Below, one piece after another: positions 2,311 through 24,154 of a DNA stretch of 64,000 nt. Each line of letters begins with the position of its first letter. Position 1 is the stretch's first letter. A program made the position numbers and the translations under genes. The notes beneath the pieces were generated by a model. The model searched no databases. It was not told where the DNA came from and was given only the letters and a program-made list of their open reading frames with translations. This stretch comes from Hymenobacter sp. 15J16-1T3B (GTDB lineage: Bacteria > Bacteroidota > Bacteroidia > Cytophagales > Hymenobacteraceae): NCBI RefSeq assembly GCF_020711235.1, contig NZ_JAJFAV010000001.1, positions 496,001-560,000 on the forward strand, read 5' to 3'.

Positions 2311-3630
2311 TTATGCTGCTTCTTGGCGCAACAGCCAGGTCTTGAACGCCGCAAACTCGGCGGGCAGCGCAGTTCGTTGCTCTGGGCGGCCGGCCAGCGC
2401 GGCAGCAGCGGCGGGCAACGGTATGCGAGCGGCAATGTCGGCGGGGAATACGTCCGGGAACTTGCAGGGGTGGGCCGTGGCCAAAAACACCCCGACCACG
2501 GCCTCCTGCGGGTGCACCTGCCGCCACTGCTGCCAAGCCCGCCAGGCAATGGTCGTGTGCGGGCACAGTACGTAGCCGTGCTCATCGAATACCCGGCGGA
2601 TAGCGGCGCGGGTGTCGTCGTCGGAGTAGCTGTAGCCGGTGATGAGGCCACTCAGGGCGGTGGGGTCGGCGCGCAGCAACTCCGTAATGCGGACCCAATT
2701 GCTGGGGTTGCCCACGTCCATGGCGTTGGAGAGCGTGGCTACCGAGGGCTTGGGCTGATACTGGCCGGTGCGCAGGAAGGCGGGCACGGTGTCGTTGGCG
2801 TTGGTGGCGGCCAGAAACTGGCGCACGGGCAGGCCCAGGCGCCAAGCCAGCACCCCGGCGCCCAGGTTGCCGAAGTTGCCGCTGGGCACCGAAAACACCA
2901 CGTCGCGGTGGCCCTGCCGCAGCAGTTGGGCGTACGCATGGACGTAGTAAAAGGCTTGCGGAATCAGGCGGGCAATGTTGATAGAGTTGGCCGACGTCAG
3001 CCGGAAATGCTGGTTTAGCTCGGCATCGGCAAAGGCCTGCTTTACCAGGGCCTGGCAGTCGTCGAAGGTGCCTGCTACCTCCAGCGCGCGGATATTCTGG
3101 CCGTTGGTGGTCAGCTGCTGCCGCTGAATGGGGCTCACCTTGCCGCGGGGGTACAGAATGGTGACGCGCACGCCGGGCACGCCCAGGAAGCCCAGAGCCA
3201 CGGCGCCGCCGGTGTCGCCGGAAGTGGCCACTAGCACGTCGAGGGGCCGGCCGCCTTCCTGGGCCAGGAAGTAGCTCATCAGCCGGCTCATAAAGCGCGC
3301 CCCGAAGTCTTTGAACGCCAATGAGGGGCCGTGAAATAGCTCCAGCACGTAGGTATCGGCCGCCAGGGCCACAACCGGGGCCGGAAAATCAATGGCCTCG
3401 TCGACGATGCGCCGCAGTTCTTCGGGCGGTAGGGCATCCGGTAGCAGGGCGTGGGCTAGTTCGTAAGCTATCTGCGCGAAGCTCAGGTCGGGCAGCTGCG
3501 CCCAAAAGGCCGCCGGCAGCCGCGGAATGTCGACGGGCAAGTACAGGCCGCGGTCGGCGGGCTGGCTGGTAAACAGGGCTTCGCGAAACGGCACGCGCAG
3601 GGCGCGGTTGTTGGTGCTGTAGAAGGGCAT
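2311..3630 (-). CDS. thrC: threonine synthase
   Basis: PLP enzyme converting O-phosphohomoserine to threonine, the last step of the pathway. 439 residues, normal for the bacterial type. The PLP lysine lies in SLAFKDFGARF (around residue 110), followed by ATSGDTGGAVALGF, which binds the phosphate; the C-terminal half has the family segment CPHTTIAWRAW. The ATG at 3630 (MPFYSTNNRALRVPF) matches the usual family N-terminus; the open frame extends 16 codons further without similarity. thrB lies 101 bases upstream on the same strand, and the pair may be cotranscribed. A T run at 3652-3658 read on the minus strand lies in the gap but has no clear hairpin. Confidence 0.95.
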   Translation of the reverse strand: MPFYSTNNRALRVPFREALFTSQPADRGLYLPVDIPRLPAAFWAQLPDLSFAQIAYELAHALLPDALPPEELRRIVDEAIDFPAPVVALAADTYVLELFHGPSLAFKDFGARFMSRLMSYFLAQEGGRPLDVLVATSGDTGGAVALGFLGVPGVRVTILYPRGKVSPIQRQQLTTNGQNIRALEVAGTFDDCQALVKQAFADAELNQHFRLTSANSINIARLIPQAFYYVHAYAQLLRQGHRDVVFSVPSGNFGNLGAGVLAWRLGLPVRQFLAATNANDTVPAFLRTGQYQPKPSVATLSNAMDVGNPSNWVRITELLRADPTALSGLITGYSYSDDDTRAAIRRVFDEHGYVLCPHTTIAWRAWQQWRQVHPQEAVVGVFLATAHPCKFPDVFPADIAARIPLPAAAAALAGRPEQRTALPAEFAAFKTWLLRQEAA

Positions 3631-3731
3631 GTTAATCAAAAACGACCCTGGAAGGACAAAAAAACGGGAGGGCGGCAAGCGGGTATTGACGGCCCCAAAA
3701 CCAGGAGCTAGGCCTCGCTACCTCTTCGGTG

Positions 3732-4667
3732 TTAGTCGATTACCCGCGGCCCTTGTTGATTAACCGCCGATACATACCCTTCGCTGCCCACGCCCAAGCC
3801 CGCCAGGTGGCGTTGCAGCTGCTCGGTAATAGCGGCAGCGGTGGCCTCGTCGGGGGCGAAGGCGAAGACGGAGGGGCCGGAGCCCGAAATGCCGAAGCCC
3901 ACGGCGCCGGCGTGCATGGCCAACTCGCGCAGGCGGTAAAAATCGGGGATGAGCATGGCGCGCACGGGCTCGACTAGCACGTCCTGCATGCTGCGGCCGA
4001 TCAGTCCGATATCGTTTAGAAACAGGCCGCTGACCAATCCGGCTACGTTGCCCCACTGCGTGACGGCGTCGTGCAGCGGCACGGTGCGCCGGATAAGCTG
4101 GCGGGCGTCGCGGGTGGCGACTTCCACGTGCGGGTACACGATGGCGCAGTGCAGCGGCGGCGCGGGCAGGCGCACCACCTCCAGGGGCGCGTAGCTGCGG
4201 ATGAGCACCACCCCGCCGAGCAGGGCCGGGGCTACGTTGTCGGCGTGGCCGGTGCCGCAGGCCAGCTCCTCGCCCTGCATGGCAAAGGGCAGCAACTCCA
4301 GCGGCGTCAGGGGGCGGCCCAGCAGCTCGTTGATGGCCCACAGGCCCGCCACGGTGCTGGCCGCGCTGCTACCCAGCCCGCTGCCGATGGGCATTTGCTT
4401 GTGCAATTCGATGTCGACGCCGAAATCGGCATCGCGGCCGAGGTGACGCAGCAGCATCTGCACGCTGGCGCTGACGGTATTGCGCTCCGCCGCCAGCGGC
4501 AGCCGCCCATCGTCGCCCGTGATGCGGGTGACGCGCACGCCCGGCGCGGCGCGGCGGGTCATCCGTACTTCGTCGCCGGGCCGCTCAACGGCCAGGCCCA
4601 GCACATCGAAGCCACAGACGAGGTTGGCCACGGTGGCGGGAGCGAATACGCGGACGGAATCGGGCAT
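3732..4667 (-). CDS. thrB: homoserine kinase
   Basis: GHMP-family kinase phosphorylating homoserine, the substrate supplier for ThrC. 311 residues. Visible motifs: N-terminal VFAPATVANLVCGFDVLGLA, the ATP-binding PIGSGLGSSAAS loop (around residues 92-103) and the C-terminal motif GFGISGSGPSVFAF. Start at ATG 4667 (MPDSVRVFAPATVANL), the classical GHMP N-terminus. It is followed by thrC, but thrA, which normally heads this operon, is 5.5 kb away. A near-consensus -7 element lies about 57 bases upstream, so thrBC probably has its own promoter. Confidence 0.95.
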   Translation of the reverse strand: MPDSVRVFAPATVANLVCGFDVLGLAVERPGDEVRMTRRAAPGVRVTRITGDDGRLPLAAERNTVSASVQMLLRHLGRDADFGVDIELHKQMPIGSGLGSSAASTVAGLWAINELLGRPLTPLELLPFAMQGEELACGTGHADNVAPALLGGVVLIRSYAPLEVVRLPAPPLHCAIVYPHVEVATRDARQLIRRTVPLHDAVTQWGNVAGLVSGLFLNDIGLIGRSMQDVLVEPVRAMLIPDFYRLRELAMHAGAVGFGISGSGPSVFAFAPDEATAAAITEQLQRHLAGLGVGSEGYVSAVNQQGPRVID

Positions 4668-4723
4668 AGGGTAAATAGGCAAACCGTTGGACAGGAAACC
4701 CAGCATGACGCTTGGTGGAACGG

Positions 4724-4928: not shown

Positions 4929-6581
4929 GTGAAAACACTTTTACTGTCTACTAAATGCTGGGGGCTGCTATGCGTAGCCCTTTTTTCGCAGCTGGTAGCC
5001 CACGCTCAACTGGAGCTATTGACGATTACAAAATCGCCTCAAACTACCTCGACCCAAACCATTGTAATTCCACAATCGGCCACCATACTGGACAATAGTG
5101 TACAGCAGGAAAGAAATTATAACGCCCAATTAATCGACACGACTCCACTGCCCAAACCACCGGCCTCCAGTTTGCCTCTTATTCAAGCAAACGTTACCCG
5201 AAAAGTAATTCAAATTGACTCGTTGAGCTCTATTCGGGACCAAGCAAAAGCACTCAAGCAGGCCAAAGAAGTCGAGCGCATTCAAGATGTTATTGAATAT
5301 TATGATCGGCAGAAAACGCAGCTAGTGGCCGATTACGAACGGCAAAAAGCAGAAGAAGCGGAACTGCGTCGCAACATGACCAAGGTACAGGAAGCCTTGA
5401 AGCGTCAGATACGCGACATCTACGAAGACCAGCTAAGCAAGCTGCGGGCAGACGTAACGAAAAATAGTCTGTTGCTCAAGGAATCGTTGGACTCCCACAC
5501 CACCGAAATACAAAAGATCAAGCAATTCAAGGACAGCCAGACCCCTGCCGATTCGCTCGACAAAGACCTTACGGCCACCTGGTACAAAGCGTACCGCGGC
5601 TTTGATGCGGACGTCCGAAACCTGGAGCTGAGACTAGCCGACGCCACTGCTTCCTACCGAGATTTTGCCAAAGTCACCAGCGCATTCGCGAGCTACAAGA
5701 TCGGGGCTATTGACACCTCCAGCGCGCAGAAGAAAGAATACAACCAGCAAATTACCAATGTTCAGCGCGCAACAACTGACTTAACGCTGAAGCTGGATTC
5801 GGTGCGTTTTCAACTCACTGCCTACAATCAAAAGCTCAAGGACTGGGCCGAAAGCTTCCGCAGCCAGCAAGCTGCCAAGGCCAAACTAGCGGCAGCAGCT
5901 AGCAACGAAAGCAACCTAACCGCTTTGCCGGCGCTAACCGGTATTAAAGGCACTGGGCTATTTATTCCCGCAGTGTCACTTATTGGCAGCCGGCGCAATG
6001 GTACTGCAGAAAGCCCGCATATGTATTCGCTGCGGTTGTTTACAGCTCTGGGGGGCACCGACAATGCGAATGATGTGCCCAGTAAGCGCGGCACCGAACG
6101 CCTGTTCATTGCGGATGCCAGCTCGTTTGGCTTTAGTGGCAATGCGGTATGGGCAATGAAGTATGGAAAAAGGCCGGATGCCGTTATGGGTGTCAGTTTC
6201 GGCGCTGCTTACCTCGACAAGCTGATGACGCCGGATACCATTACGCACTTCACGAGCGGGGTGGCAACCATGCGCGCCGGCTTGGAGTGTTACCTGATTC
6301 CCAATGTACTGTTGCTATATGGTGGGGTAAATAGCCTTAGCTTTCTAACCAACCGCAACCAAATAGCCTCTCATTTTACGGATACGCGCCCCAAAGACGT
6401 CTATTTTTATCCCGACGCCGGGGCACGGGCCATTTTAAATGTAAGTCAGAAAAGCGGCGTGACTTTTCTCTTTGAATTAGGTTTTGTGGTCAAGAATAAT
6501 GATGTGCGCAAGTTTGTCCCCAACGACGATTTCGTTATTACCACACTGCGGGCTACGCTGGCCAAGAATTTTGCGCTGTAA
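4929..6581 (+). CDS. exported coiled-coil protein with C-terminal outer-membrane-like region, unknown function
   Basis: 550 residues starting at GTG (VKTLLLST...). A signal peptide ends at AHA|Q near residue 26. Residues about 90-320 are charged, heptad-like helical sequence rich in Glu, Lys, Gln and Arg, with very few Pro or Gly (for example RQKAEEAELRRN), so probably coiled coil. Residues about 345-550 alternate aromatic and polar residues with Gly-rich turns, ending in ...LAKNFAL, consistent with a small outer-membrane barrel. I recognise no named family. Base composition is visibly less GC-rich than its neighbours and codons such as TTA, AAA and ATA are common, suggesting transfer. It lies between thrB and the metalloprotease gene, on the opposite strand to the thr genes. 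Confidence 0.75.
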   Translation: MKTLLLSTKCWGLLCVALFSQLVAHAQLELLTITKSPQTTSTQTIVIPQSATILDNSVQQERNYNAQLIDTTPLPKPPASSLPLIQANVTRKVIQIDSLSSIRDQAKALKQAKEVERIQDVIEYYDRQKTQLVADYERQKAEEAELRRNMTKVQEALKRQIRDIYEDQLSKLRADVTKNSLLLKESLDSHTTEIQKIKQFKDSQTPADSLDKDLTATWYKAYRGFDADVRNLELRLADATASYRDFAKVTSAFASYKIGAIDTSSAQKKEYNQQITNVQRATTDLTLKLDSVRFQLTAYNQKLKDWAESFRSQQAAKAKLAAAASNESNLTALPALTGIKGTGLFIPAVSLIGSRRNGTAESPHMYSLRLFTALGGTDNANDVPSKRGTERLFIADASSFGFSGNAVWAMKYGKRPDAVMGVSFGAAYLDKLMTPDTITHFTSGVATMRAGLECYLIPNVLLLYGGVNSLSFLTNRNQIASHFTDTRPKDVYFYPDAGARAILNVSQKSGVTFLFELGFVVKNNDVRKFVPNDDFVITTLRATLAKNFAL

Positions 6582-6811: not shown

Positions 6812-6819
6812 TACATTTG
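6812..6819 (+). promoter_or_regulatory. -7 promoter element of the metalloprotease gene
   Basis: Perfect TAnnTTTG (TACATTTG). The predicted start site, about 6825, excludes the TTG at 6817 as a start codon because it lies inside the promoter, and supports the TTG at 6850. Confidence 0.65.
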
Positions 6820-6849
6820 GCTAATCACACTCACTCAACCCCAACCAAC

Positions 6850-9800
6850 TTGAAACACCGTTACCTACCCGCTTCGGCGCGCCCGCTGCTGAGTGGTGCG
6901 GCGCTGCTGCTGGCCCTGAGCAGCGCCCGGGCCCAACAGCCGGCGGCCACCTTGTTGCGCGACGCCGAGCCCACCGCGTCGCCCTTGGCGGCGGCTTTGC
7001 AAAGCGCCCGCCCGCTGCTGCTGGACCCGGCCACGGCCCGCGCCGTGCTGGCTACTGCCCCGCCCGAAACCCGCGCCGGCGCCCAGCCGCTGGTGTTGAG
7101 CCTGCCTCTGCCCGACGGCAGCACGCAGCGCTTCGCCGTGTGGCAAAGCAGCGTGATGGCGCCGGGGCTGGCCGCCCGTTACCCCGACATTCAGACCTAT
7201 ACCGGCCGCGGCCTCGACGAGGCCTCGGCCACCGTGCGCTTGGACCTGACGCCGGCTGGTTTTCACGCCCAGGTACTCTCGCCAGCGGCCGGCACCGTGT
7301 TTATCGAGCCGGCGCGCCGCGGCGACACCCAGCACTACCTGAGCTTTAACAAGCGCGACATCCGGGACGGCGCCGTGGAGCAGCAACCCTGCAGCTTCCA
7401 GCCGGCCGCCAAAGCTGCGGCCCGGCAGGCCAGCGGCTTCGCGACGGCCCTGCCGGCTTACAACGGCACGGCGGCGCAGGTAGCCGGCGGCGGGCAGCTC
7501 CGCACCTACCGCGTGGCCGTGGCCACCACGGGCGAGTACGCGGCCTTCCACGGCGGCACGCTGCCGCTGACCTTGTCGGCCATCGTCACCAGCGTCAACC
7601 GGGTGGTGGGCGTGTACGAGAAGGAATTGGCCGTGCGCTTGGTGCTGGTGGCCAACAACGACCAAATCGTGTACCTCAACGCCAGCACCGATCCGTACAC
7701 CAACAACGACGGCTCGACCATGCTGGGCGAGAACCAGACCACCGTGGACAACCTCATCGGTCCGGCCAACTACGACATCGGGCACGTGTTCAGCACCGGC
7801 GGCGGCGGCGTGGCCGGCTACGCGGTGGTGTGCCGCAACGGGAACAAAGCCCGCGGCGTGACCGGCAGCTCCTCGCCGGTAGCCGACGCCTTCGATATCG
7901 ACTACGTGGCCCACGAAATGGGGCACCAGTTCAGCGGCTCGCACCCCTTCAACGGCAACGCCGGCAGCTGCGGCGGCGGCAACCGCAGCGCCAGCGCGGC
8001 GTGGGAACCGGGCTCGGGCTCGACCATTATGGCCTACGCCGGCATCTGCGGCACGGCCCAAAACCTGCAGCGCAACTCCGACGCCTTCTTCCACGTGGGC
8101 AACTACGAGGAGATGCGCGCCTTTATCGTGACGACGCCCTGCGCCGTTGTTTCCCCTTCGAACAACGCGGCGCCGGTGGTGAGCATTCCGGCCGCCAAGG
8201 CGCTGCCCATCAGCACGCCCTTTAAGCTGACGGCCAGCGCCCTGGACATCGACGGCGACGCGCTAACGTACAGCTGGGAAGAAATTGACCGCGGTTCGGC
8301 CGGCTCGCCCACGGCCACCCAGACGGCCAACAACAACGTACCGCTGTTCCGCTCCTGGGTGCCGACTACCTCGCCCACGCGCTACTTTCCGCGCCTCTCG
8401 GATTTGGTCAACAACACCGTCGTCATCGGGGAGCGGCTGCCCACCGTTACGCGCCGCCTGACCTTTAAGTGCACCGCCCGCGACCAGCACAACGGCCCGC
8501 TGGGCGTTATCGGCGGCGTGAGCAGCAGCGACTCGCTGAAGCTGACGGTAACCAACGCGGCCGGCCCCTTCGTGGTGACGGCCCCGACGGCCGCGGGCCT
8601 GAGCTGGGCCGGCGGCAGCTCGCAAACGGTGACCTGGGACGTGGCCAACACCACCGCCGCGCCGGTGAGTTGCGCCACCGTCAACGTGCGCCTGAGCACC
8701 GACGGCGGCCTGACCTACCCCACCATCTTGGCTGCGGGCGTGCCCAACAACGGCACCGCCACCGTGACGGCGCCGAACGTGGCCACCACCACGGCCCGCA
8801 TCATGGTGGAAGCTGCTGACAACTACTTCTTCGACATTTCCAACGCGGACTTTGCCATTACGACGGCCAGCCCCTGCGCCCCGGCCACGGCGCTGGTCAT
8901 CAGCAACGTCACCAACACCGGCGCCACGCTCAGTTTCACCACGGCCAGCGGCGCCGCGCAGTACGTGGTGACGACCACGCCCGCCAGCACCACCCAAACG
9001 GTGAGCAACGGCCCGGTGAGCTTCACGGGCCTGACGCCGGGCACCACCTACACGGTGCAGGTGGTGAGCAGCTGCGGCACGGGCAGCACCTCGGCGGCGG
9101 CCACCGTGAGCTTCACCACCACCGCCCCCACGCCCTGCCTAGCGCCTTCGGAGCTGGCAGTGACCAACATCGGGCTGACTTCGGCTACGCTCACCTTCCT
9201 GGGCTCGCCCGGCGGCGGCAGCTACACCATTACCACGGTGCCCGCCACCACTACCCGCACGGTAACGGCCGGGCCGGTGACGCTGACGGGGCTTTCCTCG
9301 GCCACCAACTACGTGGTGCGCGTGGCCGGCACCTGCACCAGCGGGGCTACCTTCCCGACGGCCAGTGTCAACTTCCGCACGCTGGCGCCGCCGCCCGCTA
9401 ATGACGCTTGTGCCAACGCCTTGGCGCTGGCTTGCGGCACCACCGTAACGGGCACCACCGAGGGCGCCACGGCAACCGGCGACCCCACCGCTACCTGCAG
9501 CACCACCATCGACCAGGGCGGCGTGTTTTACCGCATCACCGGCACGGGCGCGCCCATCACGCTGAGCACCTGCTCGGCTACCACGAACTTTGACACCAAG
9601 CTGTTCGTCTTCACCGGCACTTGCGGCAGCTACACCTGCGTGACGGGCAACGACGACGCCAGCCCCAGCTGCGGCGCCAACTCGGTGGCCTCGACGGTTA
9701 ACTTCAATTCCACCCTGGGCACCAGCTACTTGGTAATGGTGTCGGGCTGGGACGACGAGGTGGGCAACTTCGCCCTGACGGCTAACTGCACCCCGCTGGC

Positions 9801-10062
9801 TGCTAAGGACGCGGCCGCCACGGCCTTCCAGGTATGGCCCAACCCGGCCGGCACCCAGGCCGCCTTCCACGTGACGCTGCCCGCCCCGGCGACGGCCGCT
9901 ACCGCTACCCTGCGCAACGTGCTGGGCCAGCGTGTGGCCGAGCGCAGCTTCAGCGGCACGGCCACGGAAGTATCGACCACGGGCCTCGCGCCGGGCACTT
10001 ACCTGCTCACGGTGCAGGTGGCCGGCCAAGCCCCGGCCGTGCGCCGCGTGGTGGTTGAGTAA
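6850..10062 (+). CDS. secreted reprolysin-like zinc metalloprotease with FnIII domains and T9SS sorting domain
   Basis: 1070 residues, exported through Sec and then probably T9SS to the cell surface or medium. TTG start at 6850 (MKHRYLPAS...) gives a signal peptide ending ARAQ. After a propeptide-like region, the catalytic domain has HEMGHQFSGSH (HExxHxxxxxH, about residues 355-365) and a downstream met-turn (STIMAYAGIC). Further on are an Ig/PKD-like part, two fibronectin III-type repeats (PCAPATALVISNVT and PCLAPSELAVTNI starts), a Cys-rich PPC-like domain, then a type A sorting domain (AFQVWPNPAGTQ...GLAPGTYLLTV...RRVVVE). Very GC-rich codon use. It is convergent with thrA across a shared terminator. 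Substrate unknown. Confidence 0.9.
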   Translation: MKHRYLPASARPLLSGAALLLALSSARAQQPAATLLRDAEPTASPLAAALQSARPLLLDPATARAVLATAPPETRAGAQPLVLSLPLPDGSTQRFAVWQSSVMAPGLAARYPDIQTYTGRGLDEASATVRLDLTPAGFHAQVLSPAAGTVFIEPARRGDTQHYLSFNKRDIRDGAVEQQPCSFQPAAKAAARQASGFATALPAYNGTAAQVAGGGQLRTYRVAVATTGEYAAFHGGTLPLTLSAIVTSVNRVVGVYEKELAVRLVLVANNDQIVYLNASTDPYTNNDGSTMLGENQTTVDNLIGPANYDIGHVFSTGGGGVAGYAVVCRNGNKARGVTGSSSPVADAFDIDYVAHEMGHQFSGSHPFNGNAGSCGGGNRSASAAWEPGSGSTIMAYAGICGTAQNLQRNSDAFFHVGNYEEMRAFIVTTPCAVVSPSNNAAPVVSIPAAKALPISTPFKLTASALDIDGDALTYSWEEIDRGSAGSPTATQTANNNVPLFRSWVPTTSPTRYFPRLSDLVNNTVVIGERLPTVTRRLTFKCTARDQHNGPLGVIGGVSSSDSLKLTVTNAAGPFVVTAPTAAGLSWAGGSSQTVTWDVANTTAAPVSCATVNVRLSTDGGLTYPTILAAGVPNNGTATVTAPNVATTTARIMVEAADNYFFDISNADFAITTASPCAPATALVISNVTNTGATLSFTTASGAAQYVVTTTPASTTQTVSNGPVSFTGLTPGTTYTVQVVSSCGTGSTSAAATVSFTTTAPTPCLAPSELAVTNIGLTSATLTFLGSPGGGSYTITTVPATTTRTVTAGPVTLTGLSSATNYVVRVAGTCTSGATFPTASVNFRTLAPPPANDACANALALACGTTVTGTTEGATATGDPTATCSTTIDQGGVFYRITGTGAPITLSTCSATTNFDTKLFVFTGTCGSYTCVTGNDDASPSCGANSVASTVNFNSTLGTSYLVMVSGWDDEVGNFALTANCTPLAAKDAAATAFQVWPNPAGTQAAFHVTLPAPATAATATLRNVLGQRVAERSFSGTATEVSTTGLAPGTYLLTVQVAGQAPAVRRVVVE

Positions 10063-10182: not shown

Positions 10183-12636
10183 TCACCGCGTGCCCACGTT
10201 CACCAGGTCGGCAAATACACCGGCGGCGGTGACTTCGGCGCCGGCCCCGGGTCCCTTTACCACCAGGGGGCGCTCCTTGTACCGTTCGGTGGTAAAGGAA
10301 ACGACGTTGTCGGCGCCGGACAGCTGGTAGAAGGGATGCTGCTCGTCGACCATCTGCAGGCTGATGCGGGCCTGCCCGTCGGCGAGCTGACCGATGTAGC
10401 GCAGCACCTTGCCCGCGGCGGCGGCGCGGTCTTTCAGCTCGTTGAAGTAGCCTTCGTGCGCCCGCAGCTGCTCGTAAAATGCCGCCGCCGTGGGCGCCTG
10501 CAGGCAGGCCGCGGGCAGCATGGGCTCGATGACGACGTCGTCGGGCTCCAACGGGTGGCCGGCGTCGCGGGCCAGGATGAGCATCTTGCGCATGAAGTCG
10601 CGGCCGTTGAGGTCGTCGCGGGGGTCGGGTTCGGTGTAGCCGCGCTGCTGGGCCTCCCGCACGATGTCGTGGAAAGACGCCGCACCGCGGAAGTTGTTGA
10701 AGATAAACGAGATGGTACCCGACAGAATGGCCTCGATGCGCTCCACCCGGTCGCCGGAGGTGCGCAGGTCGCGCAGGGTACGGATGATGGGCAGGCCGGC
10801 GCCCACGTTGGTTTCGTAGTAGAAGTCGGCGCCGTGCTGGCGGGCGGCGTCGCGCAACTCGCGGTACTGCTGGTAGGGGCCGGAGTTGGCTATTTTGTTG
10901 CAGGTCACCACCGAAATGCTGTGGCGCAGCGCTTCGGCGTAGTAGGCGGCCGGCTCCGGGGCAGCGGTGTTGTCGAGGAGCACGCAGTTGGGCAGGTTCA
11001 GCTGCTTCATGTGGGCCACGAAACGGGCGAGGTCGGCCGGCTCCGAGTGGCCGTTTTCCAGCGCGGCTTCCCAGCCGTCGAGGGGCAGGCCGCCCGCGTC
11101 AACGACCATGCGGCGCGAGTTGCTCAAGCCCACCACCCGCACCTGCACGCCGTTTTGTTCGCGCAGAAAGTCCTGGTGGGCGTGCAGCTGCGCGAGCAGG
11201 GTGCGGCCGATGTTGCCGGTGCCCAACGCGAAGACGTGCAGGGTCTTGGTCAGCGCCACGAAAAACGCATCATGCACCGCGTTCAGGGCCTTGGCCAGAT
11301 CGGCCCGGCCGATGATGACGGATATGTTGTACTCCGAGGAGCCTTGCGCAATGGCCCGCACGTTGACGCCGTTACGGCCCAGGGCCTGAAACAGCTTGCC
11401 CGCAATGCCCGGCGTCTGCTTCATGTTCTCGCCTACAATGGCCAGCACCGCCAAATCCTCCTCAATGCCGGGCAGCTCCAGCTTGCGGGCCTGCAGCTCC
11501 AGCTCAAATTCTTGCCCAATCAACTCCTGAGCCCGCACCGCGTCGTGGGGCGCCACCGCGAAGGTGATGCTGTGCTCCGACGAAGCTTGGGTGATGAGGA
11601 TGACGTTGATTTGCTCCCGGGCCAGCAGGGAGAACAGGCGCCCGCTGAACCCCGCCTTGCCCACCATACCCGAGCCCTCCACGTTGATGACGCTGATGTC
11701 GTTGATGCTCGATATGCCCTTGATGGGCAGGGCCGAGGGCTGGCAGTCGTGCCGGATGGTGGTGCCGGCGAAGCTCAGGTCGAAGGTGTTTTTGATGACG
11801 ATGGGAATGCGGCGCATGAAAGCCGGAATCATCGTGGGCGGGTAGATGACCTTGGCCCCGAAGTACGACAGCTCCATGGCCTCGGTGTAGCTCAGCTCGG
11901 ACAGCGAAAATGCCTTGTTGACCATGCGCGGGTCGGCCGTCATCATGCCGTTGACGTCGGTCCATATCTGGATTTCCCGCGCCCCCAGCGCCGCCCCGAG
12001 GATGGCAGCGGTGTAGTCGGAGCCGCCGCGGCCCAGCGTGGTAATGCGGCCCTGCAGGCTGCGGGCGATGAAGCCCGTCACGAACAGCAGCCGACCGGGG
12101 TGCTCCTGCACGAAGCCGCGGATGAGCTGCTCGGTCAGCTCCGTTTCCACCCGCGCCTGCCCGTGGTGCGCGTCGGTGCGGATCAGCTCGGTGGCCTCCA
12201 CGCACAGCGCCTCGGGGAAGCGCACTGCGGCTAGGGAGCTGACCAGAAAGGTGGCGCACCGCTCGCCGTAGCTCAGCACCCGGTCCAGGGTCTGGGACGT
12301 CAATTCGCGCAGGCTAGCTATGCCCAGCAACAAGTCCTCCAGCTCGTTAAAGAGCAGCTTCAGACGGGTAAGCACGGGGTTTTGGCGGGCCGCGTCGAGC
12401 AAGGACTTGACCACCCCGAAGTGGCGGTTTTCCAGTTCCATCAGCATGGTGGTGACGGGCCGGCCCGCGGCGGCGGCTTCGGCGGCGGCCAGCAGCAGGT
12501 TGGTCACCCCGCTCATGGCCGACAGCACCACGACGGGCCGCTCGCCACGAGCTGTTTCCTGGGCCACCACTTCCAGCAAGGTGCTGATGCTGGCGACGGA
12601 GCCGACGGACGTGCCGCCAAATTTGAGAATGTTCAT
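10183..12636 (-). CDS. thrA: bifunctional aspartate kinase / homoserine dehydrogenase I
   Basis: Fused enzyme of 817 residues catalysing the first and third steps from aspartate to homoserine. N-terminal kinase begins MNILKFGGTSVGS, with the catalytic KFGGTS at residues 5-10. Two ACT domains follow (around 315-385 and 400-470; VEGSGMVGKAGFSGRLFSL and AIVGENMKQTPGIAGKLF), the usual threonine-feedback site. The dehydrogenase has a Rossmann start ALGTGNIGRTLL (about 470-482) and the family segment YETNVGAGLPIIRTL. The ATG at 12636 is certain from MNILKFGGTSVG. Expression is probably controlled by the attenuator immediately upstream. The partner genes thrB and thrC are on the same strand but beyond a 5.5-kb block of opposite-strand genes. 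Confidence 0.96.
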   Translation of the reverse strand: MNILKFGGTSVGSVASISTLLEVVAQETARGERPVVVLSAMSGVTNLLLAAAEAAAAGRPVTTMLMELENRHFGVVKSLLDAARQNPVLTRLKLLFNELEDLLLGIASLRELTSQTLDRVLSYGERCATFLVSSLAAVRFPEALCVEATELIRTDAHHGQARVETELTEQLIRGFVQEHPGRLLFVTGFIARSLQGRITTLGRGGSDYTAAILGAALGAREIQIWTDVNGMMTADPRMVNKAFSLSELSYTEAMELSYFGAKVIYPPTMIPAFMRRIPIVIKNTFDLSFAGTTIRHDCQPSALPIKGISSINDISVINVEGSGMVGKAGFSGRLFSLLAREQINVILITQASSEHSITFAVAPHDAVRAQELIGQEFELELQARKLELPGIEEDLAVLAIVGENMKQTPGIAGKLFQALGRNGVNVRAIAQGSSEYNISVIIGRADLAKALNAVHDAFFVALTKTLHVFALGTGNIGRTLLAQLHAHQDFLREQNGVQVRVVGLSNSRRMVVDAGGLPLDGWEAALENGHSEPADLARFVAHMKQLNLPNCVLLDNTAAPEPAAYYAEALRHSISVVTCNKIANSGPYQQYRELRDAARQHGADFYYETNVGAGLPIIRTLRDLRTSGDRVERIEAILSGTISFIFNNFRGAASFHDIVREAQQRGYTEPDPRDDLNGRDFMRKMLILARDAGHPLEPDDVVIEPMLPAACLQAPTAAAFYEQLRAHEGYFNELKDRAAAAGKVLRYIGQLADGQARISLQMVDEQHPFYQLSGADNVVSFTTERYKERPLVVKGPGAGAEVTAAGVFADLVNVGTR

Positions 12637-12646
12637 GGCAGGGGCA

Positions 12647-12680
12647 TAAAAAAACGCCTTCCCGGGCGGCGGGAAGGCGT
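12647..12680 (-). terminator. attenuator terminator upstream of thrA
   Basis: A perfect 10-bp stem (ACGCCTTCCC at 12654-12663 with GGGAAGGCGT at 12671-12680) with a seven-base loop, followed on the minus strand by seven T residues (12654-12648). It lies between the threonine-rich leader and the thrA start codon, so a transcript must read through it to express thrA. This is the terminator half of an attenuator. Confidence 0.9.
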
Positions 12681-12707
12681 TGGCTGAAAGGTGCGAAGCA
12701 GGTTTGA

Positions 12708-12791
12708 TTAGCCCCCGATGCGCGCGCCGCCGTCCCACCCGCTGCGGGCGGTTGTGGTGGTCGTGGCGGTTGTGGTCAGGCCGAAGCGCAT
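12708..12791 (-). CDS. thrL: thr operon leader peptide
   Basis: A 27-codon frame from ATG 12791 to TAA 12708. Codons 6-14 read T-T-T-A-T-T-T-T-T, eight threonines in nine codons, using ACC, ACA and ACG. The rest (MRFGL at the start, ARSGWDGGARIGG at the end) is not recognisable. It lies 27 bases before a terminator hairpin and 71 bases before thrA. The logic is that of enterobacterial thrL: scarcity of charged tRNA-Thr stalls the ribosome, frees the G-rich codons 18-26 to pair with the C-rich loop region of the terminator, and lets transcription continue. Codons GGC GGC (21-22) complement GCCGCC in the terminator loop. The enterobacterial leader also mixes Thr with Ile; here only Thr is enriched, apart from one Ile codon near the end. 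Too short for routine gene finders. Confidence 0.88.
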   Translation of the reverse strand: MRFGLTTTATTTTTARSGWDGGARIGG

Positions 12792-22099: not shown

Positions 22100-24154
22100 T
22101 TAGTTGGTCGTCGAGGGCGTGGCGTTGATCTTGGTCACCTTGAACTCCGTGCGACGGTTCTTCTGGTGCTCTTCCTCGGTCTTCGCGTTCTTAATCACCG
22201 GCTTCGTTTCGCCGTAGCCCTTAGCCGTGATGCGAGCGGCCGGCACCCCTTTCGAAATGATGTAGTCCACGGCCGACTGCGCACGCTTCTGCGACAGGGT
22301 CTGGTTGAAGGCATCTTTACCGCGCGCGTCGGTGTGCGAGCTAAGTTCGATGTTGATGTCCGGGTTGTCCACCAGCGTCTGCACCAGCTTGTCCAGCTCC
22401 GTGGCTGCATCCGGGCGGATGTCCCACTTGTTGTAATCGTAGAAGATGTTCTCCACTACGATGGCCTTGTTCACGACGATTTTGTCGAGCGTCAGGGTCA
22501 CCGGCACGGTGATGTCGTTCTGCTCGTTGGGCAGCTGATCCTGCGTTGGGGTCTTGCCCACGGTGCTCACGTTCTGACGAGCCGTGAAGTAACCGCCGCG
22601 GTCAGCCATAAAGGTGTACGTAGCCGAGGTATCAAGCTTCACCTTGAACGAGCCGTCGGCAGCCGTTCTCACGTCCTGCTTTTGCCCGTTGCCCGCGGTG
22701 ATGGTCACCGTTTCATCAGCCAGCGGCTCGGTAGCGCCGGTCTTGGCGTCCTTGCCCAGCACCTTGCCTTCGGCGTAGAAGGTCACGAGCTTGAGCGGCT
22801 TCTTGCGGAACATGTACAGGTCGTCCGAACCCTTACCACCGGAACGGTTCGACGAGAAGATGCCCATGTCGTTGCCGGTCAGGTACGGCGCGAAATCGTC
22901 GCCGGTGCTGTTGATCGGCGTGCCCAGGTTGGCCACTTTGCCGTTCTTCTCCACGCGGAACAGGTCGAGCTTGCCGAAGCCCGGGTGCCCGTCGGACGAG
23001 AAGTACAACGTGCCATCCGGGCCCACAGCCGGGAAGTTCTCGTTACCGGGGGTGTTGATCTGGTCACCCAGGTTCTCGGGAGCCGAGAAGCGGTTGTTGG
23101 CGCCCAGCGTAGCCTTGTACAGGTCGTTGCCGCCCTGCCCGCCGGGGCGCGACGAAGCGAAGTACAGCGTCTGCCCGTCGGGCGAGAGCACCGGCGAGAA
23201 GTCGTCGGCCTTGCTGTTGTTCACGCCGCGCACCAGTTCGGGCTCGGTCCAGGTGCCGCCGCGGAAATACGACACGAACAGGTCCACGCTCAGCAGGCCT
23301 TTCTTCGAGCCGTCGTTCGAGCGGGCGAAAATCATCATTTTGCCGTCAGGCGAAAACGTCGCCGAGGCCTGGTGCATGTTCGGCTTGTTGAACACCGGCT
23401 TGCCGGCGTCCTTGTCGTTCTTGGCCGGAGCCGCCGGGGCCGGCGTAGTGCCGGTGGCACCAGCGGCAGGCGCCGGCGCAGCGGCGGCACCACCCATGGC
23501 CACCGTTTCGTAGGGCATTACCGTACCGCCAGTCATCTTCTCCGCGTCATCGAACTTGATGGCGTAGAGGTGGTTGAAGCCTTCACCGTTGCCGGGGTAT
23601 TTTTTCCCGTCGCGGCCCGAGGCAAACACCAGCTCTTTGGTGTCGGGCTTGATGGTGGCGCTAAAGTCGGACGAGGCCGTGTTGATCTGGTCCAGCGGGG
23701 TCACCTCGTTGTTGTTGCGCATGGCCATCAGGCCGGGTACGGCCTTGGCGTTCTGCGCTTCGCGCTCGGCGCGGGCTACCAGCGTGCGGTTGGTGCCGCT
23801 GGTGGAGTACTGCTCAAACTGGGTAGCGGCCTCCTCGTACTTGCCGTTGGCTTTCAGGGCCAGGCCGTAGTAGAAAGGCGCATCGGCATTCTTCACCCCA
23901 CCATCCAGCGCAGCCTTGTAGTACTGCTCGGCCTGCTCGATGCGGTTCGACATGCGGTAGGCCTCGGCGATTTTGTAGTTGGCCGTGGCAATGTCCTTGC
24001 CCTTAGCCACATCGGCCTTGTAGAGTTCAATGGCGGTTTCATACTCGCCACGGGCAAAGCGCTTATCGGCTTTGCTCAGCCCGCCCGACGCGGCGCAACC
24101 GCCCAGGACGGCCACCGAGCCAGCCGCTGCGCAAGCAACGATGAGGTTCTTCAT
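22100..24154 (-). CDS. OmpA-family lipoprotein with TPR, PD40 propeller and CRD domains (PorE-like)
   Basis: 684 residues. The lipobox is VAVLGGC, with Cys20. TPR-like repeats fill about 25-115 (KADKRFARGEYETAIELY, YYKAALDGGVKNADAPFYYGLAL). PD40/beta-propeller blades follow at about 130-440 (FSPDGKMMIFARSN, LSPDGQTLYFASSRPGG, VGPDGTLYFSSDG). A carboxypeptidase-regulatory-like domain spans about 455-545, and an OmpA C-terminal peptidoglycan-binding domain about 570-684 (IELSSHTDARGKDAFN, LSQKRAQSAVDYIISKGV). This exact order is that described for PorE, the peptidoglycan-anchored lipoprotein of the type IX secretion machinery, although paralogues with the same architecture exist. The T9SS-type substrate at 6.9 kb gives it a plausible job. 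The 5' leader is CCA-rich. Confidence 0.85.
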   Translation of the reverse strand: MKNLIVACAAAGSVAVLGGCAASGGLSKADKRFARGEYETAIELYKADVAKGKDIATANYKIAEAYRMSNRIEQAEQYYKAALDGGVKNADAPFYYGLALKANGKYEEAATQFEQYSTSGTNRTLVARAEREAQNAKAVPGLMAMRNNNEVTPLDQINTASSDFSATIKPDTKELVFASGRDGKKYPGNGEGFNHLYAIKFDDAEKMTGGTVMPYETVAMGGAAAAPAPAAGATGTTPAPAAPAKNDKDAGKPVFNKPNMHQASATFSPDGKMMIFARSNDGSKKGLLSVDLFVSYFRGGTWTEPELVRGVNNSKADDFSPVLSPDGQTLYFASSRPGGQGGNDLYKATLGANNRFSAPENLGDQINTPGNENFPAVGPDGTLYFSSDGHPGFGKLDLFRVEKNGKVANLGTPINSTGDDFAPYLTGNDMGIFSSNRSGGKGSDDLYMFRKKPLKLVTFYAEGKVLGKDAKTGATEPLADETVTITAGNGQKQDVRTAADGSFKVKLDTSATYTFMADRGGYFTARQNVSTVGKTPTQDQLPNEQNDITVPVTLTLDKIVVNKAIVVENIFYDYNKWDIRPDAATELDKLVQTLVDNPDINIELSSHTDARGKDAFNQTLSQKRAQSAVDYIISKGVPAARITAKGYGETKPVIKNAKTEEEHQKNRRTEFKVTKINATPSTTN

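Follow-up and report, generated by a model that had tools for sequence, protein, structure and literature searches.

The 64,000 nucleotides of Hymenobacter DNA analysed here (the window) carry a short threonine-rich reading frame and a hairpin with a T tract directly upstream of thrA, an arrangement that raises the question of whether this gene is controlled by transcription attenuation. Classical leader attenuation is known from the trp, his and thr operons of enterobacteria, and an earlier note on this DNA was right to call it best known from that group. We find that the element very probably controls thrA by ribosome-mediated transcription attenuation, with charged threonyl-tRNA as the signal sensed. 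Sequence comparison allows its putative parts, their conservation, a constraint at two levels (the amino acid in the Thr run, the RNA in the leader tail) and matched change in antiterminator and terminator to be recognized; we infer that the leader is translated, that ribosomes stall on it, and that read-through occurs and responds to threonine.

Anatomy of the thrA leader

The locus comprises the following features, with the basis of each assignment in brackets.

12708..12791, minus strand: leader peptide frame of 27 codons plus TAA, MRFGLTTTATTTTTARSGWDGGARIGG (open reading frame; relatives)
12750..12776, minus strand: control codons 6-14, eight Thr and one Ala (translation; third-position variation)
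12735..12751, minus strand: predicted protector hairpin CCGCCCG-CAG-CGGGUGG, spanning the last part of the Thr run through codon 19 (RNAalifold consensus; folding)
12728..12739, minus strand: putative antiterminator strand GGUGGGACGGCG, codons 18-22 (duplex; swap comparison)
12668..12679, minus strand: putative antiterminator partner CGCCUUCCCGCC, the terminator 5' arm plus two loop bases (duplex; swap comparison; folding)
12653..12681, minus strand: intrinsic terminator stem-loop; the stem has 12 bp without a mismatch and the 5-nt loop is CCGCC (terminator scan)
12648..12654, minus strand: tract of seven T that completes the terminator, its first two bases shared with the end of the hairpin
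10183..12636, minus strand: thrA, fused aspartokinase/homoserine dehydrogenase of 817 aa (ATG aligned in six leaders)

The leader runs from an ATG at 12791-12789 to a TAA at 12710-12708 on the minus strand, where the 27-codon frame of the earlier note is confirmed. Its eight Thr occupy codons 6, 7, 8 and 10-14, and these control codons would be the stall site of a threonine-starved ribosome. It is the sole frame of at least 10 codons with eight Thr in nine codons on either strand of the window, and mononucleotide shuffling of the 300 bases upstream, repeated 5000 times, never yielded such a frame on the minus strand. The perfect stem and seven T that had been reported also hold, while the spacing between the leader stop and the stem is 26 bases rather than 27, and the string given as the loop, GCCGCC, includes one G of the stem. 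As had been noted, thrA follows right after the terminator, with its ATG at 12636. A start at GTG 12738 was rejected; the longer frame would cross the terminator, and this start is not conserved. Two hallmarks of a leader-peptide attenuator, a run of cognate codons in a short frame and an intrinsic terminator before a structural gene, are present here.

A T tract is found on the minus-strand side of the hairpin only, with none on the plus-strand side. Scanning 501 bases on both strands returned four terminator-like sites against 0.6 expected, and the leader terminator has the longest stem among them (12 pairs versus 7, 7 and 5). With a z-score of -0.51, the free energy of the leader as a whole is unremarkable, so the evidence lies in anatomy and conservation, not in raw stability. 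No sigma-70 promoter was recognized in a scan of the minus strand; Bacteroidota promoters differ. The hairpin could have been the 3' end of an upstream gene, a reading that we reject in view of the divergent orientation of the neighbour, a plus-strand frame from 12955. The sole minus-strand frame of at least 100 aa just upstream (13491-12967) is antisense to this divergent gene, and for these reasons no neighbour seems to need the terminator.

A structured element that binds tRNA or a ligand and happens to contain the frame would look partly alike, given that T-boxes and riboswitches also use a terminator and an antiterminator. We consider such an element very improbable: no Rfam family reaches its cut-off (the best match under relaxed settings scores 20.3 bits against a cut-off of 45), no curated Rfam model of a T-box or metabolite riboswitch matches the leader region, and the run of cognate codons would be without a role.

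Conservation of the leader among relatives

The earlier note had proposed looking for a Thr-rich leader and a hairpin upstream of thrA in related genomes. Genome contigs were scanned with the 817-aa ThrA, and the best 80 of 513 confirmed matches were taken as relatives. Five of them are genomes of Hymenobacter type, Solirubrum included, with 95 to 80 percent identity; the remaining 75 loci are from Mucilaginibacter, Pedobacter, Paradesertivirga, Sphingobacteriales or Bacteroidetes, and ThrA identity reaches down to 67 percent. The computed thrA start is not ATG at 15 loci, at which distances are approximate. Loci L102-L106, whose leaders are the same as those of the window, L022, L023, L025 and L026, were omitted from counts, as was L265. 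In L099, a Pedobacter locus, a Flavo-1 RNA (RF01705; 2555-2647, minus strand) precedes the thrA leader and is encoded on the other strand.

A Thr- or Thr/Ile-rich leader occurs at the same place before thrA in 80/80 of these best matches, and a terminator was scored in 79 of them (80/81 with the window) by a folding-based finder, which was used in place of one that allows loops up to 8 and misses the long hairpins of genus g4. By comparison, the relatives' flanks contain four short open reading frames with at least seven Thr/Ile in nine codons per 382,717 bp. Five of the eight genomes of the window's genus encode a fused ThrA, all five with the leader, and the other three have single aspartokinases only. 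These counts, together with the synonymous exchange of Thr codons and the co-varying antiterminator described below, bear out the proposal of Thr attenuation by ribosome stalling in Bacteroidota.

The two halves of the leader vary in opposite ways. Across five leaders including the window's, the variable columns of the Thr run at codon positions 1, 2 and 3 number 1, 1 and 6 of 9; variation thus falls mostly on third positions, which leaves most of the amino acids unchanged. In the tail (codons 16-27) of the same five leaders the pattern is reversed (3, 6 and 1 of 12), which suggests that its peptide is free and its RNA constrained. Among the 75 non-Hymenobacter-type loci, a terminal Gly-Gly-Arg is spelled GGA GGA AGA in 59 of the 64 leaders so ending, and GGAGGAAG is found with its exact downstream complement CTTCCTCC at 65. 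Nine of the 12 pairs of the terminator stem are identical across the six aligned Hymenobacter-type leaders, and the covariation term of their RNAalifold consensus is slightly unfavourable at +1.09.

These observations bear on whether an untranslated Thr-rich frame merely happens to lie beside an ordinary terminator. The genome is GC-rich and has ACC/CCA repeats elsewhere, for example at 24293-24063, which speaks for such a coincidence; against it stand the retention of the leader in every one of the 80 relatives, the mostly synonymous change of the Thr codons, and the lack of a neighbour in apparent need of a terminator. We regard chance as close to refuted and give it hardly any weight. The frame at 24293-24063 (minus strand, TTG start) was rejected as a second Thr-rich candidate: it is a CACCACC repeat without a visible terminator, apparently a low-complexity 5' stretch just preceding a gene with its ATG at 24154, which we take from its sequence to be OmpA-type.

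Pairing of the leader tail with the terminator arm

The earlier note placed the antiterminator between codons 21-22 and GCCGCC. This pairing is exact in the window and in L023, two of the six Hymenobacter-type leaders, could be kept in L022 via one G-U pair, and appears as a folding alternative with stalls at codons 6-10. It is not the conserved antiterminator, and we replace it with a putative pairing of codons 18-22 with the terminator 5' arm, in which GGUGGGACGGCG (12739-12728) pairs with CGCCUUCCCGCC (12679-12668) at 11 of 12 positions, with one G-U. The best duplex between tail and terminator arm in the window, which contains GGUGGGACGGCG, has an energy of -24.6 kcal/mol (p 0.020 versus tail shuffles). 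At 100 distinct loci, from which 16 further loci with a leader and no terminator by the finder used were excluded, the duplex reaches p <= 0.05 versus shuffles in 81, and in 72 of the 75 that are not of Hymenobacter type. Within the six Hymenobacter-type leaders only the window's falls below 0.05, the others giving 0.055, 0.055, 0.119, 0.119 and 0.144.

The tails and terminator arms of 18 hand-picked lineage representatives, several of them related, were also compared in their own and in exchanged combinations. Cognate combinations have a mean residual of -3.23 kcal/mol, and 0 of 20,000 permutations were as good. The cognate arm ranks first in 4/18 and at rank 5 or better in 15/18, and poor fits are seen in L099, L025 and L117 (ranks 7, 9 and 13 of 18). 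Judged by this comparison, the leader tail has evolved in step with the terminator arm in the different lineages.

Folding with simulated ribosome positions

Folding of the leader in two states had also been suggested in the earlier note. We assumed a ribosome footprint of 18 bases before to 12 after the first base of the A-site codon, with only downstream RNA free to pair, and computed antiterminator probabilities before the terminator 3' arm exists. The probability is 0.01 without a ribosome; an A site placed at codons 6, 8, 10, 12, 13 and 14 gives 0.34, 0.36, 0.46, 0.60, 0.81 and 0.90, respectively. Stalls at codons 12-14 (0.60-0.90) favour the antiterminator. Loss of the antiterminator with the ribosome at the stop codon follows by construction from the assumed footprint. 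An antiterminator that occupies the terminator 5' arm, excludes the terminator and becomes available when a ribosome stalls at the control codons is in this way obtained computationally.

The predicted protector hairpin between the end of the Thr run and codon 19 has a probability of 0.50, 0.52 and 0.44 with stalls at codons 6, 8 and 10, of 0 at codons 12-14, and of about 0.45 without a ribosome. It is present in the six-leader RNAalifold consensus, in which one pair is changed on both sides, and four of its seven pairs are broken in L026. The complete terminator has a probability of 0.96 with the A site at codons 8, 12 or 14, at the stop, or with no ribosome. Since the finished terminator wins at equilibrium, the switch must be kinetic and decided while the 3' arm is being transcribed. 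The E. coli K-12 thr leader, once complete, likewise folds into its terminator at all eight stall positions tried.

The preference for the terminator at equilibrium is also what might be expected if the same leader and signal acted on another step, such as Rho-dependent termination or access to the thrA start, and the hairpin were a plain terminator of fixed strength. Thr/Ile leaders before thrA that mostly lack a T-tract terminator, found in families f19, f33, f34, f74 and others (see below), point the same way. A terminator of fixed strength would have no need for tail and terminator arm to change together across lineages, and we consider control at another step unlikely.

We therefore return to the attenuator, for which the following sequence of events is proposed. 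With ample threonine, a translating ribosome would pass codons 6-14 and reach the stop; codons 18-22 would then be behind or under it, or folded with the end of the Thr run into the protector, which may hide the antiterminator strand when no ribosome is there. The terminator could form, and RNA polymerase would halt before thrA. When threonine is short, a ribosome would wait at the late Thr codons 12-14 and cover the 5' arm of the protector, codons 18-22 could pair with the freshly transcribed terminator 5' arm, and the polymerase would continue into thrA.

Gene context and evolution

Two further genes of threonine biosynthesis lie in the window.

3732..4706, minus strand: thrB, homoserine kinase (start 4706 or 4664)
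2311..3678, minus strand: thrC, threonine synthase, directly after thrB (start 3678 or 3633; TIGR00260 match 2449-3432)

Both share the strand of thrA and lie about 5.5 kb beyond it, past two plus-strand frames at 4929-6581 and 6817-10062, the latter large and metalloprotease-like. In 77 of the 80 relatives (the best of 513 matches), thrB lies no more than 600 nt downstream of thrA in the same orientation, which implies that the attenuator heads a thr operon, and thrC was found in the locus in 74, some loci ending early. The exceptions for thrB are L022-L024, the nearest kin of the window; because thrB is not adjacent to thrA in this clade, it is not obviously under the attenuator. Probably thrA kept the attenuator when an ancestral thrABC operon broke up.

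The closest ThrA proteins outside the window's genus g1 are those of f61 and of some g6 genomes (64-70 percent identity), and ThrA of genus g4, from the same family as the window, has about 50 percent. This unevenness across g4, g6 and f61 suggests transfer of thrA together with its leader. No leader was found before either of the two single aspartokinases of the genome (L011 and L017), nor, by the thresholds used, before its leuA.

Leaders in the wider phylum

A further 158 thrA loci, chosen as best matches and spread over genera rather than as a random sample, were searched for leaders with at least six Thr/Ile in nine codons. A leader was found in 50, 32 of those also with a terminator, and by this threshold none in 108. 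Family labels were assigned by tool, and the family names attached to them are inferred. Leader and terminator occur together in 24/49 loci of the window's family (f1), in 7/7 of f61, whose leaders resemble those of Mucilaginibacter, and in 1/3 of f23, where the match is weak; 34 loci of f4, f14, f15, f18 and f20 gave no leader.

A second architecture was identified in f19, f33, f34, f56, f74 and a few other families. Here, at the 3' end of the Thr/Ile leader, a small hairpin encloses or adjoins the leader's stop codon; its sequence is ACCCC..GGGGU or ACGGG..CCCGU, depending on the family. In many cases a CAUAU(A) box comes next, in many also a second, weak hairpin after that, and a T-tract terminator is usually lacking; examples are L174, L178, L234, L273 and L274, among others. 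CATAT occurs after the leader at 28 of 52 distinct loci (part of a larger set of 75) versus 6.2 expected from shuffles. A terminator was found at four of the 52, two of them weak and two, L296 and L302, classical in appearance; L295, from the same search, also looks classical in the printed sequence. At 30 loci hand-chosen as second-architecture-like, the stop-codon hairpin has a z-score below -1 in all 30 and the second hairpin in 20.

These leaders of other Bacteroidota families, mostly free of a T tract, make it probable that the phylum uses a second mechanism. It would have to act through a step for which leader attenuators offer no described precedent, perhaps involving Rho or a box-reading protein, and constitutes a more novel lead than the classical element of the window.

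His-rich leaders precede hisG in f74, which is presumably Flavobacteriaceae. Of 49 genomes with a match, 30 loci were fetched, and 19 of these have the leader (L331, L332, L336, L338-L351, L354 and L356). Like the window's element they have cognate codons, a T-tract hairpin (visible in most in the printed sequence) and a tail complementary by eye to the hairpin 5' arm, as with CUCAAGCG and CGUUUGAG in L339 and L344; unlike it, they concern histidine and another operon. In 8 of 20 His leaders, CATAT is found no more than 60 nt from the leader stop. In the genome of the window itself, a His-rich frame, MSLVASLRFSLSPAVPHWGAAAGHAGHHHHHSSPGEE (HAGHHHHH), ends 176 bases before a hisG match (L324; contig C1 207429-207974, minus strand). 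It is followed by ACGUAUAG, which is similar to the CAUAU box, and no T-tract terminator was seen. We put forward, tentatively and with some doubt, the idea that Bacteroidota have amino-acid leader attenuators for thr and his throughout the phylum, in two architectures, and that the element of the window belongs among them.

Comparison with known systems

The claim of novelty for the phylum made in the earlier note is only partly right. A 2021 transcriptome of Flavobacterium psychrophilum reports 'strong clues' for attenuation by leader peptides ahead of amino-acid operons (PMC9723704); it shares the phylum and the proposed principle with the window, and the passages considered name no operon and describe no anatomy. 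A 2020 map of B. thetaiotaomicron mentions short frames 'reminiscent of leader peptides'. Firmicutes have His leaders before hisS paralogs and hisZ, according to Naville and Gautheret 2010 (PMC2965389); these too lie outside Proteobacteria and Actinobacteria, in another phylum and before other genes, and 'Bacteroid-' has 0 occurrences in the main text of that paper. In our literature search no title or abstract dealt with a Bacteroidota threonine attenuator, a subject that Lopatovskaya et al. 2010 may cover. The mechanism itself is classical and already known, here in a little-described phylum.

The Rfam model of the threonine leader (RF00506, Thr_leader) has no match in the window, relaxed settings included, and the E. 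coli K-12 leader, as positive control, scores 122.1 bits against a cut-off of 55. The present comparison yields a ready annotation rule, absent from Rfam as used here, and places classical translation-coupled threonine attenuation in Hymenobacter-type bacteria, Mucilaginibacter and Pedobacter. Ribosomes of these bacteria mostly do without Shine-Dalgarno pairing. If these bacteria use leader attenuation, close coupling of ribosome and RNA polymerase is to be expected there too, and the leaders make this coupling directly testable.

The closest known counterpart is E. coli thrL of the thrLABC operon. Both have a short Thr-rich leader, an antiterminator in its last codons, a complementary terminator 5' arm (tail GGTGCGGGC and terminator arm GCCCGCACC in E. 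coli, in the same layout) and, next, a fused aspartokinase/homoserine dehydrogenase gene. In the window's clade, unlike E. coli, only thrA is directly downstream and not thrBC. The leaders of E. coli and Mucilaginibacter are Thr/Ile-rich, whereas the run in the window holds Thr only and no Ile, so this copy should sense threonine alone. Mucilaginibacter-type leaders (..ITTIITTG..GGR) are alike in layout to E. coli thrL (..TITITTGNGAG), a likeness that would fit a leader travelling with the thrABC operon.
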